NCBI RefSeq assembly: GCF_003997495.1
Contig: NZ_RZRU01000002.1
Coordinates: 248,001-312,000 of the forward strand
Reading direction: 5' to 3'
Source: Mesorhizobium sp. M7A.F.Ca.US.008.03.1.1
Lineage (GTDB): Bacteria; Pseudomonadota; Alphaproteobacteria; Rhizobiales; Rhizobiaceae
DNA: 64,000 bases
Under the pieces are notes generated by a model. It made no database searches. It was not told the origin of the DNA and was given only the letters and a program-made list of their open reading frames with translations. Below, in pieces: positions 23,608 to 29,560 of the stretch. How positions within the stretch are numbered: position 1 is the first letter of the stretch; each line of letters starts with the position of its first letter. Both the position numbers and the translations under genes were made by a program.

Positions 23608-23840
23608 CGCTCTGGGGCTCGCTCGCCGCGACCGCCGGAGGCAACAGCAAGGTCGAGATCGAGGCCAAGGACATAAGGGAGCTGTTCAGGAAGCTGGCTG
23701 AACAGTATCCCGGGATTGAGCCCTGGATCGATCGTGGGATCGCGGTTGCGATCGACGGGACGATCTATCGCGATACCTGGTCGAAGGAGTTGCCGGAGGG
23801 GGCGGAGATTTTCCTGTTGCCGCGGCTGGCGGGGGGGTAG
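23595..23840 (+). CDS. MoaD/ThiS-like sulfur carrier
   Basis: An 81-residue beta-grasp-like protein starting MVEVTLWGSLAATAGG and ending LLPRLAGG. The C-terminal Gly-Gly is the hallmark of MoaD/ThiS carriers, which are activated as thiocarboxylates. The start lies inside the last codons of the molybdopterin subunit (13-base overlap), so it is translationally coupled. Such a carrier could supply sulfur for the molybdopterin dithiolene or for the Mo-bound sulfido ligand. The dedicated role is inferred from the operon. Confidence 0.78.
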   Translation: MVEVTLWGSLAATAGGNSKVEIEAKDIRELFRKLAEQYPGIEPWIDRGIAVAIDGTIYRDTWSKELPEGAEIFLLPRLAGG

Positions 23841-23920
23841 TGAGGTTGCGCTATCGACCCGGGGCAGGTGTCCGCAACTGGCGTCTGGAATGGCACTTCG
23901 CGCTTTGTACTAACGGATGG

Positions 23921-25102
23921 CTATTTGAGCGTCTGCCCGTCTTGAGCCAAGATTAGCGGAATAAGTTGGACCGCTACACGGCTGGCGACAATGGCTCCGT
24001 GGCGCTGATATCTGTCCTCTTTGTGCTCATTCGCGTAATCCACTGCTACTTTGACTCCGAAGAAATCGACGTGATCCACAGAACGCTTTGCCGCGCGATA
24101 AACACCAAACATTTCCATATCTAGGCCGAGCACCCGCTTGTGCGCCTCTGCGATCATTGCTGCCATGTCCTTTGATGCGATTACAGCAGAGCCACTAACC
24201 ATCGGTGCCACCATAGCCTTGCTTTCAAAAAACTCAGGGTCGTTGAGCGATTTCAGGTCCTCCTTAATATCCTTAAAGTGATTGCTCCGCTCGATCTCTT
24301 GCTTGATTATAGTATCTAGGCGATCTGGAATTGGCTCTTGATACATCTCCAACGTGAATTCGTTCCCGAACCACTTGCCGGCTTGGTGCTCCCATACTGG
24401 GCTGCCAATGAGAATGTCGCCAAGCTTTGCGCGTCCCTCGAACGCTGCACATATTCCGACGATCAAAACGAGCTTGGGGCGGAAAGTTTCAATAGCCTTA
24501 TCCGTCGCAATACTGGCTTCAACCAAGCCCATCCGAGGGAGCACCACTGCGACTCCAGTGTGCTTCTCGATGTCTATTTCGAGACAATTCAGTCCGTTTC
24601 GAAAGAAGAGCTTTCCAATCTCCGCTTTCGTGCTTTGCAGCACTTGACGTTCAAGAGGCAATCCGCAAATGATTACAAAGTCATGCTCTTGAAATCGAAA
24701 TGCACGTTGCAAGCTCACTTCTAGTGCTGGAATCCAGTGCGCCCCGTCAGAGTACTCAACAGTCGCTATTCCGAGCCCGGCAAGCTCCCTACTACGAGCT
24801 ACCACCAGATCGTCGTGTTGCGTTATCGCGACATAGGCTGCCTTCGCATTTAGGTTACTCGCCCGTATGAGTTCGATGACGTGATCCGTGATGTCAAATG
24901 GAACATCGCCGTCCCTCATAGGCACCATAAGATCAAGTATAACAAGATCAAACCTTGAAATAGATAATATCGCTGTGAACTTCGAAAAACTTACAACGCG
25001 GTCTATCTCAACGTCATCGATATCGATGTATTTATTTATTACACCTATTATTGCCTCTGCCTTTTCATCTTCATCTTCAAGTAAAAGTATCTTAGTCATC
25101 AA
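23921..25102 (-). CDS. dtcC: receiver domain fused to nucleoside phosphorylase: Detocs effector DtcC-like
   Basis: A 393-residue protein in two parts. Residues 1-135 form a CheY-like receiver with an acidic cluster E9-D10-E11-D12, phospho-acceptor D57 (LVILDLMVP) and T94. Residues 140-390 form a PNP/UDP phosphorylase-type domain with the glycine-rich VGICAAFEG (215-223), VSGSAVIAS (302-310), the nucleoside-binding LDMEMFGV (327-334) and a candidate catalytic Asp in VAVDYANEH (352-360). Exactly this fusion is the DtcC effector of Detocs, which on phosphorylation cleaves the glycosidic bond of ATP to abort infection. The usual conserved Lys of the receiver is not seen near 115-120. It is the last gene of a four-gene AT-rich operon and overlaps the preceding gene by 4 bases. 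Confidence 0.8.
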   Translation of the reverse strand: MMTKILLLEDEDEKAEAIIGVINKYIDIDDVEIDRVVSFSKFTAILSISRFDLVILDLMVPMRDGDVPFDITDHVIELIRASNLNAKAAYVAITQHDDLVVARSRELAGLGIATVEYSDGAHWIPALEVSLQRAFRFQEHDFVIICGLPLERQVLQSTKAEIGKLFFRNGLNCLEIDIEKHTGVAVVLPRMGLVEASIATDKAIETFRPKLVLIVGICAAFEGRAKLGDILIGSPVWEHQAGKWFGNEFTLEMYQEPIPDRLDTIIKQEIERSNHFKDIKEDLKSLNDPEFFESKAMVAPMVSGSAVIASKDMAAMIAEAHKRVLGLDMEMFGVYRAAKRSVDHVDFFGVKVAVDYANEHKEDRYQRHGAIVASRVAVQLIPLILAQDGQTLK

Positions 25103-25554
25103 AGCTCCCCGATAAATCGAGCAAAATTAAGTCGCCAGTTCGTGCTCGACTGATCGAAGTGAATGATTCCAATCAGATTTACACTGACTTCCTCAGACAA
25201 GCGGCTAATCACCTCAGGTAATCTAACCAACTCGCCCCAGATTTCCACCTCTGGGTATTGCGTAACAATCAAAACGGCGTCGCTACGCCTCAGTCGGTTC
25301 AACTCCAATAGCACTTCAACTCCGCCAGATGGCATGGACTTTGGATTCCCCACGCCCAGCGCACGATCATGACTGGGCAAAGCGATATCCAGGATTATCA
25401 AATCATACGAGGCGGCGCAGACGCTCTCGACAGCCGTTTGAACAGCTCGTGCGCACGCGATATGATCAACTACAATGATTTCGTTGAGTGCAACGCTAAT
25501 GGCTTCTTCCTTGAACGGGTCGTCCTCAACCAGCAGAACGTTCATTGGCTTCAA
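25099..25554 (-). CDS. dtcB: stand-alone response-regulator receiver: DtcB-like
   Basis: A 151-residue single receiver domain without output domain. The acidic pocket is E10-D11-D12, the phospho-acceptor D56 (DLIILDIALP), and T98 lies in VLIVTQYPE. An insertion of about 15 residues follows D56 (HDRALGVGNPKSMPSGG). The position normally held by the invariant Lys seems to be occupied by H132 (IGIIHFD). In Detocs, DtcB is a lone receiver that drains phosphate from the kinase and so sets the threshold for activation. The start overlaps the kinase stop, and the stop overlaps the effector start, 4 bases each, implying fixed stoichiometry. Confidence 0.78.
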   Translation of the reverse strand: MKPMNVLLVEDDPFKEEAISVALNEIIVVDHIACARAVQTAVESVCAASYDLIILDIALPSHDRALGVGNPKSMPSGGVEVLLELNRLRRSDAVLIVTQYPEVEIWGELVRLPEVISRLSEEVSVNLIGIIHFDQSSTNWRLNFARFIGEL

Positions 25555-27740
25555 AGCGTTGTCAGGGTCAGTCTGAATGTGAAGGCGACGCCGTTTGGAG
25601 AGAACGACACCGAAACATCTGAGATATCGGTTTTCGCTGATGTTAGCGCCCTCAACTTGCGAATCCCTGTTGATCCTTCTGTCACAAGCGCGTCGTCCAT
25701 AGGGGCTGTCATCTCGTGCTCAATTCTTTCGCGTGAATAGCTTTCACGCCCGGCTTCAAACTGCGACACCACAGTTACATAGATCGTCGTGACAGGGCCG
25801 TCGACCTTTTCGCTGACGCTCAGTTCAAGGGCCCCACCAATCTGACCATGTCGAGCAGCATTATGCACCAGAATGTACAAACCGTCGTATACGTATTGAT
25901 ATCGGTGGCCAACAATTCGGGTACCCGACTCTTCGGGTTCAGACACCTCAGGAGCAAAACCTGCGACCTGCTCGGCTACCTCCATTCGTACTACCTGAAA
26001 TAGCTCCTGTAACGTAGCAGAGGGCGTCGTTTCCTTTGGAGCAGCAAACCATGCACTAATTTGCTGGAGTGTCTCCGCGACTTTCTCATTCACCCTTCGC
26101 ACAATTGCTCTTGCTTGGTCATCGTCAGCGCCGGGCTCTGGCATTCGCCGGAGATCCTCCTTCTTTAGCAGAAGCTTTTCACCGCGCCATCTCTCTAACT
26201 CTCGCTGAATCTCGGTGAGGTTAGGCTGCAACAGTAACCAACACGACTGAAAAATTATATCAATTGCCTCAGGTATCGAATTATTGCTCAATAACGACTC
26301 GCAGACCTGCCGCACGGAGAATTCAAGCATATTATACTCTGCGCCTCGTACGTGAGGCACAAGTAACCCTCTGGGTTTTTTGTCAGATTTCACCTGGAGT
26401 CGTTCTCGAGGAAACAGTTTCACCTCGTCGCCGAATCGCGCCAACCAAAATCGCAAACCATGCTCATAGTTCACGCGATCAGTGCCGCATTGATTTAGTA
26501 GTTCTTCGACCAAGTCAGATGCGCTTTTTATTAGAGTTCCGTGAAATGTCCCATGCCTTATTCGGCGCCCTATGTATGAATCAACACCATAGGCTTTGTT
26601 GCAACAAAACTCATTGTAAGCCGCATCAATTATGCTAGCTACCTGAAGAGATGGGTCGATAAGGATCTCTATCTGGTCGTCGATCTTGACCTCTTGGGCA
26701 GGAATACTCTGATCTACGGTGGTAAGGTCGGCCTGCCTAAGCGGCCCCGCCAGCTTTTCAAACATCCATTGCTTGAAGCGAACCGAATCGACGTACAATC
26801 TCTGAGAATCTATATCATGTCGAATCAAAACTAACTTATTTTCTAGAGCAAGAGACCTCGCTCTCTCCAGCAATACCTTATCGTCCGTTTGATGGCCATA
26901 CCAATCCAGTATCGACGTGGAGGCCACGTTAACTTCATAGGCTGACTTGTATAACTTATAGCATTGGATAAGGAAGGATTCGTTCCACATTGCCATGTAG
27001 AATTTTGCGACCTGAGGCGCCGTTTTGTAAATAAATTTAAGTAATGACAATATGCTGCCACCAAAATTTGCGATCACTATTCGCTCGGTTGCGCTTCGCA
27101 TATTGAATTCCGTGCTTATTTTTGGCGCCGACTCAAACTTTAGACTCGCTCTGATTAACTCATACAGGTTGTCCTCCGGCTTTGACGGCAGTGCCGCATC
27201 AAGCTCCGCCTCGCTCAATAGCTGTGGAACGTTCTGCGTGACGTTCATAAGGGTCACGAGTTCAAGGCCATTGCAGCTACCCAATGAATATCCATGCTCA
27301 ACGAGATGAACGAGCCGCAGTGTTCGCTGGAACTCGTCGTCAGGAATTATCGCCGCATCAGCCGCCTTCGGTGGCTGAATACCCTGTTGCGCCATTACCG
27401 AGCGAACCAATGAGTCATGGTCAGCGCTTTCAAGAAACGGCCGCTCGACTCCAAAGACGCCGTCAAATCGAGGGCCAGCATATCTTTCGATTGGTCCGTA
27501 GAACGACGCCAGCCGCTCGTCTGAAAGCCATGCACTTGCCATACAGAATGCACCTTGCCCGTCGAGAAGGTCACCAGTTGCCGCAAGGTTCAGAGCGTCA
27601 AATACGCCTGTCGTTCTTGCTGCGAGATAGGCTTCGCTCAACTCCGCTGGAAGATTTATTTTTTGCGCGGCATCATTTGTCAAAACAAGCGTACTACCAA
27701 GAGTACGACTCTCAAGAATAAACATCAGTGTATCGGGCAA
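25551..27740 (-). CDS. dtcA: histidine-kinase-like sensor: DtcA-like
   Basis: A 729-residue soluble protein. The C-terminal 150 residues look like a GHKL ATPase: an N-box-like LYILVHNAARHG (621-632, N627) and a G-box-like EGSTGIRKLRAL (688-699). No textbook H-box is present. H463 in LLVPHVRGAEYNMLEFSVRQ (459-478), at the start of a long helical stretch, is the best phospho-acceptor candidate. The N-terminal 450 residues have no recognised sensor domain and no membrane segment. A conspicuous RRIRHGTFHG motif lies at 392-401. The placement before a lone receiver and a receiver-phosphorylase fusion identifies it as the DtcA-type kinase of Detocs. It overlaps dtcB by 4 bases. Confidence 0.75.
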   Translation of the reverse strand: MPDTLMFILESRTLGSTLVLTNDAAQKINLPAELSEAYLAARTTGVFDALNLAATGDLLDGQGAFCMASAWLSDERLASFYGPIERYAGPRFDGVFGVERPFLESADHDSLVRSVMAQQGIQPPKAADAAIIPDDEFQRTLRLVHLVEHGYSLGSCNGLELVTLMNVTQNVPQLLSEAELDAALPSKPEDNLYELIRASLKFESAPKISTEFNMRSATERIVIANFGGSILSLLKFIYKTAPQVAKFYMAMWNESFLIQCYKLYKSAYEVNVASTSILDWYGHQTDDKVLLERARSLALENKLVLIRHDIDSQRLYVDSVRFKQWMFEKLAGPLRQADLTTVDQSIPAQEVKIDDQIEILIDPSLQVASIIDAAYNEFCCNKAYGVDSYIGRRIRHGTFHGTLIKSASDLVEELLNQCGTDRVNYEHGLRFWLARFGDEVKLFPRERLQVKSDKKPRGLLVPHVRGAEYNMLEFSVRQVCESLLSNNSIPEAIDIIFQSCWLLLQPNLTEIQRELERWRGEKLLLKKEDLRRMPEPGADDDQARAIVRRVNEKVAETLQQISAWFAAPKETTPSATLQELFQVVRMEVAEQVAGFAPEVSEPEESGTRIVGHRYQYVYDGLYILVHNAARHGQIGGALELSVSEKVDGPVTTIYVTVVSQFEAGRESYSRERIEHEMTAPMDDALVTEGSTGIRKLRALTSAKTDISDVSVSFSPNGVAFTFRLTLTTL

Positions 27741-27773
27741 AGAATAGGAGGAAAGTGCCCTTAGATGCTGAAC

Positions 27774-28457
27774 TCAGCTCTCGTCGCCTCCTCCCAACGG
27801 AGATAAATGGTAGTGGAGCAGTCGTCTTGAAATTAATGACAGCCTCTTGTCGTTCGCTAGTCGAAGAAACATTCTTCGAGAATCAATATAGTCCCGGTCC
27901 AAGGCGTAGGACTCACCCACGGCTCTGTGAACGGCATCGCGATTATCTCTTACAGAGTCGATGTAAGGGCGTATTGCAGAAATAACTGAATTGTCATTTT
28001 CAAACCGTCTCGAAAGGCAAAGGTATTTTCTATTAACGTGAAATGAGTAGCCGATTTCGTTAGTAAAAATCGCTGTTACCTCTTGGAGTGATTTGGTATC
28101 TCGTTCTTGCACAGATCGATTCAAATCAGCCACAGCGGTCAGATATGTCTGAAGTTGTCGGGAGTGTCGGGTGATGCGCCGCACCAGTAGCGAAGTAAGC
28201 GCGGACTGACTCAGATGGTCTAGCGGAGTCAGGTGCCCTATACGAGGAGGTCTTGTCGGAAACGGCAGCGAGACAATAACTCGGCCGTCAGCTTGGGATT
28301 CCGTGATAACGGCGAGCGCGATTTCTAAATCGCCTCCAGTACAAATCGAGTATAAGCGATCTATAACGTCTGCTGAGACAGCTTCGTCGCGAGAGGCTAT
28401 GATGCCGCGCACGAGGTTTCGTGCCTCGGTGGAACTCATTTCCATCAGTTTTTGCAT
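27774..28457 (-). CDS. unrecognised 227-residue protein, first gene of the Detocs-like operon
   Basis: No family recognised. The protein is soluble, helical and basic in its C-terminal half (RRFEN..., SRRMFLRLANDKRLSLISRRLLHYH). A proline-rich turn lies near residues 62-75 (LPFPTRPPRIGHLTPLDH). Starts at codons 1, 5 and 7 are possible; none has a strong Shine-Dalgarno sequence. It ends 33 bases before the kinase start on the same strand and shares the island's AT-rich composition, so it is probably co-transcribed. As I recall the original description, Detocs needs three genes, so this is an accessory candidate such as a trigger sensor or modulator. Confidence 0.7.
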   Translation of the reverse strand: MQKLMEMSSTEARNLVRGIIASRDEAVSADVIDRLYSICTGGDLEIALAVITESQADGRVIVSLPFPTRPPRIGHLTPLDHLSQSALTSLLVRRITRHSRQLQTYLTAVADLNRSVQERDTKSLQEVTAIFTNEIGYSFHVNRKYLCLSRRFENDNSVISAIRPYIDSVRDNRDAVHRAVGESYALDRDYIDSRRMFLRLANDKRLSLISRRLLHYHLSPLGGGDES

Positions 28458-28663
28458 TACTTACAACGCTCGCCCGAGTCATGCCCGAGTCGCTTTTCGC
28501 ACGAAGGATCTTTGCAGGCAAACTTGTCGTTCGGGTGTGCTCCTCGAAGCCTACACCGAAACATACTCAATTGCAGCGTGGCCCCACGATGATGTGGGCC
28601 TTCTCGGCGAGAAGTATCCGCGCGCGTTTGACCGACCGGCGAAGGTGACCGGCGCCGATTCGC

Positions 28664-29104
28664 CTACGCCCCCAGCGTCGGCTCCGTATTCACTTCCAGC
28701 GCCTCTTCCGCCTCGTCGTCCTCGCCAAGGCTGTCGCCATGCACGGCCAGCGGGCGGCCGATCCAGATCGGGTCGACCAGATGGTCGCGTTTGGGGTTGG
28801 TGGTGTTGGGGTGGATGAGGATACTCAGGCCGCGGTGGTTCAGCATCAGCCACGGCACCAGCGAAGCAAAGATCCCGGTGGCGAAGGAGACCTGGTACAT
28901 GGCCTGTCCGTGCGGACCGACCTGTCTGTCGTGCCAAGCGCCCAGGCGCACGCGGAAACGTTCGCCGATGCGCAGGCGCAGCCATTCGGCATGCCGCCGC
29001 TCGGCCTGCCCGTCATAGTAGACATGGGCGTGATAGCTGGCGATCTCGGCGAGTTGTCTGGGATTGGACGGATCGGGCGATCTCGCGGCGGCGTCTTCGT
29101 TCAA
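28664..29104 (-). CDS. DOPA 4,5-dioxygenase family protein
   Basis: A 146-residue protein if translation starts at the TTG at 29104, which has GAAGGGGAG seven bases upstream. No ATG is available in front of the conserved domain. The family signature YHAHVYYDG opens the domain (about residue 23), and [12 protein letters not shown] lies near 104-115; the histidines are the likely metal ligands. The family is the small vicinal-oxygen-chelate-like DODA dioxygenases. The reading frame is open upstream into the remains of a sugar permease, which gives an artificial fusion of 291 residues. Confidence 0.75.
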
Positions 29105-29236
29105 TTCGATGCTCCCCTTCGATGACAAGCGGCGGCGAGCCGCTGGGCGCGCAGGGCAGGGTCGGCCTTTGACCGCTGCGCTCAATTTTACCAACCTCTC
29201 GATCGGGTCGCCAGCCGCCCGGCGCGATCCGCTACT

Positions 29237-29560
29237 CTCCTCCACAATCCGCAAATAAGCCGACGTCACGAACAGCACGATCAGCCCGAACAAGATCCGC
29301 CTTGCCCCCTCCGGCATCTGCAGGATGGTCAAGAGCGTCGTCAGCACGATCAGGATCAGCGCGCCGATGATGGTGCCGGTGTAACCGCCGCGGCCGCCGA
29401 AGATCGAGGTGCCGCCGACCACAGCGGGCAACCGAGGGCAGCACCAGCGGTTCGGCGAGCGACAGCGATGGCGTCTGATCAGGCGATATGGAGCAGGCCG
29501 GTGATGCCGGCGAGCATGCTGGAGATCACTAAGGCCCAACGGTGGCTCTCCATCACTCGC
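29237..29560 (-). pseudogene. decayed C-terminal part of a sugar ABC-transporter permease (RbsC-like)
   Basis: Minus-strand translation gives [20 protein letters not shown] followed by two hydrophobic stretches and [20 protein letters not shown], the typical C-terminal end of ribose/xylose-type permeases. The immediately preceding permease segments ([14 protein letters not shown], and [16 protein letters not shown] in another frame) are present but split by frameshifts and a stop. The N-terminal two thirds are absent. No ATPase or binding-protein gene is near. It is a relic. Confidence 0.62.

Follow-up and report, generated by a model that had tools for sequence, protein, structure and literature searches.

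The block of DNA described here raises the question of whether a Detocs-like defence operon has gained an additional gene. In the literature drawn upon here, Detocs is described as a set of three genes, encoding the kinase DtcA, the lone receiver or 'buffer' DtcB, and DtcC, a response-regulator effector with a PNP domain (PMC11249213, PMC11728103). A preliminary description of the window, by which we mean the whole stretch of 64,000 nucleotides of Mesorhizobium DNA that was analysed, had proposed that a 227-residue ORF preceding such a set was an additional gene, and with it a new component of the system. The four minus-strand ORFs that it reported are all present:

28457-27774, minus strand: ORF 1, 227 aa
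27740-25551, minus strand: ORF 2, 729 aa
25554-25099, minus strand: ORF 3, 151 aa
25102-23921, minus strand: ORF 4, 393 aa

Their arrangement differs in part from the tight spacing first proposed. The 4-base overlaps (25551/25554 and 25099/25102) arise only with TTG starts, and alignments favour ATG starts, which place the beginning of the lone receiver at ATG 25545, 5 bases past the kinase stop, and that of the receiver-PNP protein at ATG 25099, with a 1-base overlap with the receiver stop. The presumed 33-base spacer between the first two ORFs (27740/27774) is actually open reading frame, with ORFs 1 and 2 in one frame, and translation of 28457-25551 as a single frame yields a sole internal stop, the TGA at 27776-27774. 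We consider it quite probable that the three genes of the block form a Detocs-type anti-phage operon, which was acquired at a defence hotspot and in which the DtcA-like kinase has been interrupted by one nonsense codon. The features of the block can be redrawn as follows:

23841..28662: inserted block between conserved flanks, from alignments to three relatives (G311, G312 and G307)
27777..28457, minus strand: N-terminal 227 codons of a DtcA-like sensor kinase, predicted all-helical
27774..27776, minus strand: in-frame TGA, codon 228 of the kinase frame, from the translation of 28457-25551
25551..27773, minus strand: remainder of the DtcA-like kinase, with a helical region, H-box and HATPase-type catalytic domain
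25099..25545, minus strand: DtcB-like lone receiver, 148 aa from ATG 25545 (PADLOC PDC-M60B, 1.2e-22)
23921..25099, minus strand: DtcC-like receiver plus PNP-type nucleosidase domain, 392 aa from ATG 25099 (PADLOC PDC-M60C, 5e-56)

The block and its insertion site

The AT-richness attributed to the block is confirmed by its G+C content (49.8% for 23841-28662, against 63.5% elsewhere in the window), and GC3 is also lower, at 0.47-0.55 for the block genes against 0.83-0.87 for two window genes outside it. The neighbours, taken at first for housekeeping operons, are more accurately a ThiS-family gene on the left, itself following a molybdopterin-binding large subunit, and a DOPA-dioxygenase-family gene with a putative permease remnant on the right. 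The ORF at 28664-29539 joins a putative permease C-terminal stretch to a DOPA-dioxygenase domain; window positions 29237-29529 match DNA located elsewhere in relatives, at 84-91% identity, and from these matches the ORF looks like a gene remnant.

The site was surveyed in 41 genomes, including the window's own, and four relatives were fetched (loci L085, L087, L088 and L089). In G311, G312 and G307 the left flank alignment ends at window positions 23838-23846 and the right one resumes at 28663, with other genes in between. At this position G311 encodes a Dsr1-like SIR2 protein (E 2.7e-97), G312 has a product resembling HNH-type effectors (PDC-M68A, 3.7e-25) together with a second ORF lacking a match, and G307 has three ORFs, all without a match. 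The left flank of G309 is 96% identical to the window, and this genome presents an ion-channel-domain protein and a PDC-S28 helicase at the site, with a different right junction. A search for the block DNA in 146 genomes of the genus found it in one, that of the window itself. The proposal of a transferred island is hence sustained by three relatives of the genus with other genes between the same flanks, alongside a fourth in which the right junction differs, and the site between the ThiS-family and DOPA-dioxygenase genes is likely to be a hotspot for defence cassettes.

The kinase frame and its partner genes

Relatives of the kinase were drawn from 33 matching plasmid records, of which 11 were opened, 44 genome-contig loci and 2 viral-contig loci (L006 and L056 are one and the same plasmid), while a single-protein scan of genome contigs gave no matches. 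In the resulting 56 loci, the kinase is a single ORF of at least 952 aa in 51, is cut at or near a contig end in two (L032 and L055) and is broken in three (L003, L045 and L059). A set of 48 intact kinases was obtained from the 51 single-ORF loci by leaving aside L008 and L061, which are distant, and L063, a near copy of L047. Read through the TGA, the window kinase frame comprises 968 codons, compared with 952-1074 residues (median 980) in these 48 relatives.

An N-terminal profile made from the 48 intact kinases, with the window excluded and the N/C division of the set taken from an alignment that included it, matches the 227-aa piece with an E-value of 5.6e-22 (75.3 bits), the top score among 2000 shuffles being 12.6 bits. 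Run against 294 window frames, each taken from stop to stop, the same profile gave a comparable match to this same frame alone. The piece on its own, used as a phmmer query, matched the kinase N-terminus in 14 of the 56 loci with E-values up to 0.01, the match in L059 being to a detached N-terminal kinase piece. When the family profile was used to search the genome, it aligned to the locus in a single continuous match that spans profile positions 13-983 of 984 and includes one TGA. The alignment crosses the stop without gaps, at a mostly hydrophobic column where 41 of the 48 relatives have L, F, I or V (L18 F13 I6 V4 A3 C2 R1 Y1), and the stop codon falls within helix 225-238 of the predicted structure model.

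Searches with ORF 1 yielded zero matches in plasmids, only its own genome among 297 genomes of the order, and nothing above cut-off in Pfam, NCBIfam or PADLOC, where two Pfam matches fell far below it (E 0.22 and 0.28). Frame continuity and the profile match (5.6e-22) led us to reject a separate fourth gene: the 227-residue ORF corresponds to the N-terminal part of the kinase, severed by one in-frame TGA, and it is only the stop codon that makes it look like a new component.

In the rest of the kinase, the H-box (motif SYxGRRIRH) is located at His396 of the 729-aa ORF, and the fold matches listed for the kinase concern its C-terminal part, with a catalytic-domain fold. DtcA is an intracellular histidine kinase with a large N-terminal sensor part; the window kinase presents an H-box and a catalytic-domain fold, but matches zero Pfam families and has its frame broken by the TGA at codon 228. 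Its match to PADLOC PDC-M60A (8.7e-20) is restricted to the C-terminal portion of that model (positions 701-1122 of 1161). The first start codon downstream of the stop is TTG 27740.

The lone receiver exceeds the cut-off of Pfam Response_reg (31.7 bits against 30.2) and retains Asp53 and the acidic pair E7 D8. The receiver-PNP protein exceeds that of Pfam PNP_UDP_1 (43.8 bits against 25.1); its receiver alone scores 16.1 bits, below the cut-off of 30.2, but the family profile matches solved receivers. Asp56, E150, E329 and D354 are invariant and are retained in the window. The predicted model of the effector (pLDDT 87.2) matches MTA/SAH nucleosidases, with a best PDB fold E-value of 5.6e-16, and its Glu150, Glu329 and Asp354 align with a Glu, Glu and Asp of a solved nucleosidase, which we take to be the catalytic residues of that enzyme. 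The succession of kinase, receiver and receiver-PNP was found in 53 of the 56 related loci, the available DNA ending too early in the other three. In these 53 loci both partners lie downstream of the kinase, L045 having an insertion between them.

Nature and consequences of the stop codon

In an intact system of this type, the helical sensor part would detect infection and the kinase would autophosphorylate, passing phosphate to the lone receiver, acting as a buffer, and to the receiver-PNP effector, which, once phosphorylated, would cleave ATP according to the Detocs literature. In the window, translation should mostly halt partway through a helix, once 227 residues have been joined. A whole sensor is therefore probably not produced, and the genes for the receiver and effector, which are still open, would probably lack their switch. 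We infer that sensing has been lost and that the stop arose by mutation, rather than through recoding or assembly error; a recent nonsense mutation is the simplest account, and the operon is probably off.

Signs of decay beyond the stop were sought in each gene. Binned by C-part identity, the identity of the N-terminal piece to its relatives and the expectation from intact kinases were 0.134 and 0.138, 0.145 and 0.146, 0.164 and 0.164, and 0.155 and 0.164; in the closest bin, which holds 2 window pairs only, they were 0.173 and 0.206. The piece also retains six of six conserved columns, so that excess divergence is not clear, and the lesion would therefore be recent, unreal or tolerated. The C part of the kinase misses 3 of 47 highly conserved columns (rank 47 of 49) and DtcB misses 0 of 11 (29 rows). 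DtcC misses 8 of 41, the most among 28 rows, in a test comprising the window and 27 chosen relatives, with L008 left out as too distant. Its replacements were judged mostly conservative and its catalytic residues are retained; these departures may speak for some relaxation. The terminal branches of the window are long, and the longest in four of six trees, from which no conclusion was drawn because the locus is without a near relative.

Broken operons were also identified among the relatives. In the same genus, G322 harbours a related Detocs-like operon (L086, 1064-7134) that adjoins a MinD/ParA-type gene and in which the kinase is interrupted by a DDE transposase gene, with the receiver and receiver-PNP still open. 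On a plasmid of Paraburkholderia sprentiae (L003, 4035-7019) the kinase, annotated there as two hypothetical proteins, is interrupted in frame by a TGA at its conserved H-box, and in L059 the kinase lies in pieces with transposase-type insertions between them, one of the two recognised by eye only. In Acidovorax soli (L045, 5368-7536) the kinase, of 722 aa, begins some 15 residues beyond the position of the window stop; its N-terminal part was not found in 13.5 kb, and unrelated sequence lies upstream. The DtcC of L060 is shortened and followed by putative transposase-like sequence, and the DtcB of L061 is apparently frameshifted. Breakage is thus recurrent in the family and not confined to the kinase; preferential breakage of the kinase is unsupported in this sample, since DtcC in L060 and, apparently, DtcB in L061 are damaged as well.

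Against this background, several other accounts of the stop can be weighed. It is scarcely credible that the 227-residue ORF represents a fourth, independent gene of a Detocs variant: it has its own ATG and stop and the family databases Pfam, NCBIfam and PADLOC offer no match above cut-off, but it matches the kinase N-terminus in frame with the remainder, and 51 single-ORF kinases are long enough to include the region, over which 48 of them align. A sequencing or assembly error, under which the real strain would have an uninterrupted kinase in an ordinary working operon, is unlikely. It would fit a single lesion in reading frames that are otherwise unbroken; the genome assembly, in 74 contigs, nevertheless scored 100% for completeness and 0% for contamination, assemblies of this kind seldom contain single-base errors, and comparable breaks are present in relatives.

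The stop could instead be functional or tolerated, with a two-part kinase produced by restart at TTG 27740 or ATG 27725, or a whole one by read-through of the TGA, able to sense phage, perhaps at a low, self-limiting dose. We regard this as rather unlikely, and as very unlikely the more specific notion that the TGA is a working feature, with the sensor part made separately or through occasional read-through or restart, that throttles the dose of an ATP-destroying switch at translation. Several observations point in this direction: the N-terminal piece is roughly as conserved as expected of an intact kinase, the operon frames have no second stop, in-frame start codons occur shortly past the TGA, and the kinase that L045 retains, of 722 aa, begins close to the position of the stop, so that a kinase piece of similar extent stands elsewhere too. 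The openness of DtcB and DtcC, with phospho-acceptor and catalytic residues retained, would likewise count against the reading of the operon as interrupted. However, zero two-ORF kinases divided here were found in the 56 loci, 51 of which have single ORFs, and L045 is disrupted in other ways besides lacking the N-terminal part within its 13.5 kb. The break also cuts a predicted helix, and a purine-rich ribosome-binding stretch is not evident, by eye, before the downstream starts. A selenocysteine reading is without support because no SelB scored above the family cut-off in the genome, and structured recoding fares likewise, as a search of Rfam around the stop with E-values up to 10 gave two chance-level matches only. 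Were the stop functional, it would constitute a new mode of regulating suicidal defence.

With interruption by a nonsense codon as the preferred reading, the operon is a member of a known system with an interrupted sensor, and little in it is new. The analysis removes a supposed new Detocs component as a false lead, exemplifies how a nonsense codon can give an N-terminal fragment the look of an orphan gene, and documents a site of apparent exchange of defence cassettes in the genus. The several separately broken operons of the family bear on the cost of keeping such systems.

Relation to Detocs and PDC-M60

DNA searches were also made for the published E. coli Detocs island at yjcB-ssb. One query gave matches in 6 of 5426 E. 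coli genomes, and the two of these loci that were viewed are both situated away from yjcB-ssb; three more DNA queries gave no match. A DUF4231 gene directly follows the receiver-PNP gene in loci from Comamonas, Klebsiella and E. coli (L007 8403-8855, L010 8399-8881, L090 17831-18313 and L091 17831-18313), and in L010, L090 and L091 the kinase is immediately preceded by a TIR-domain gene. It is possible that these are true accessory genes; neither was seen in the window.

The effector shares the PNP fold with MTA/SAH nucleosidases and is additionally fused to a receiver, and it reaches 38.6 bits with the NCBIfam nucleosidase model, whose cut-off is 169. Its assignment to DtcC, as opposed to such nucleosidases, is upheld by kinase-linked receiver-PNP proteins that match it with E-values down to 5e-81 (L018), NCBIfam nucleosidase models remaining far under cut-off; a PNP tree including the paralogues of the same genome had long outgroup branches and was uninformative.

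Among intact relatives, Rhizobium rhizogenes OV677 (L018) and Antarcticirhabdus aurantiaca R10 (L019) present the same gene order, with kinases of 984 aa and 971 aa that are 32% and 34% identical, respectively, to the window kinase in the best segment. In both, unlike in the window, the kinase is a single unbroken ORF. The A, B and C models of the PADLOC candidate system PDC-M60 are matched in order by the window operon (8.7e-20, 1.2e-22 and 5e-56), and PDC-M60 is presumably an early PADLOC name for Detocs. These matches, the nucleosidase-fold model of the effector and the same succession in 53 of the 56 loci substantiate the identification of ORFs 2-4 as a Detocs-like set. Compared with Detocs as described above, the window operon has the gene set and order of Detocs in common, and differs from it in a kinase frame broken by a TGA.
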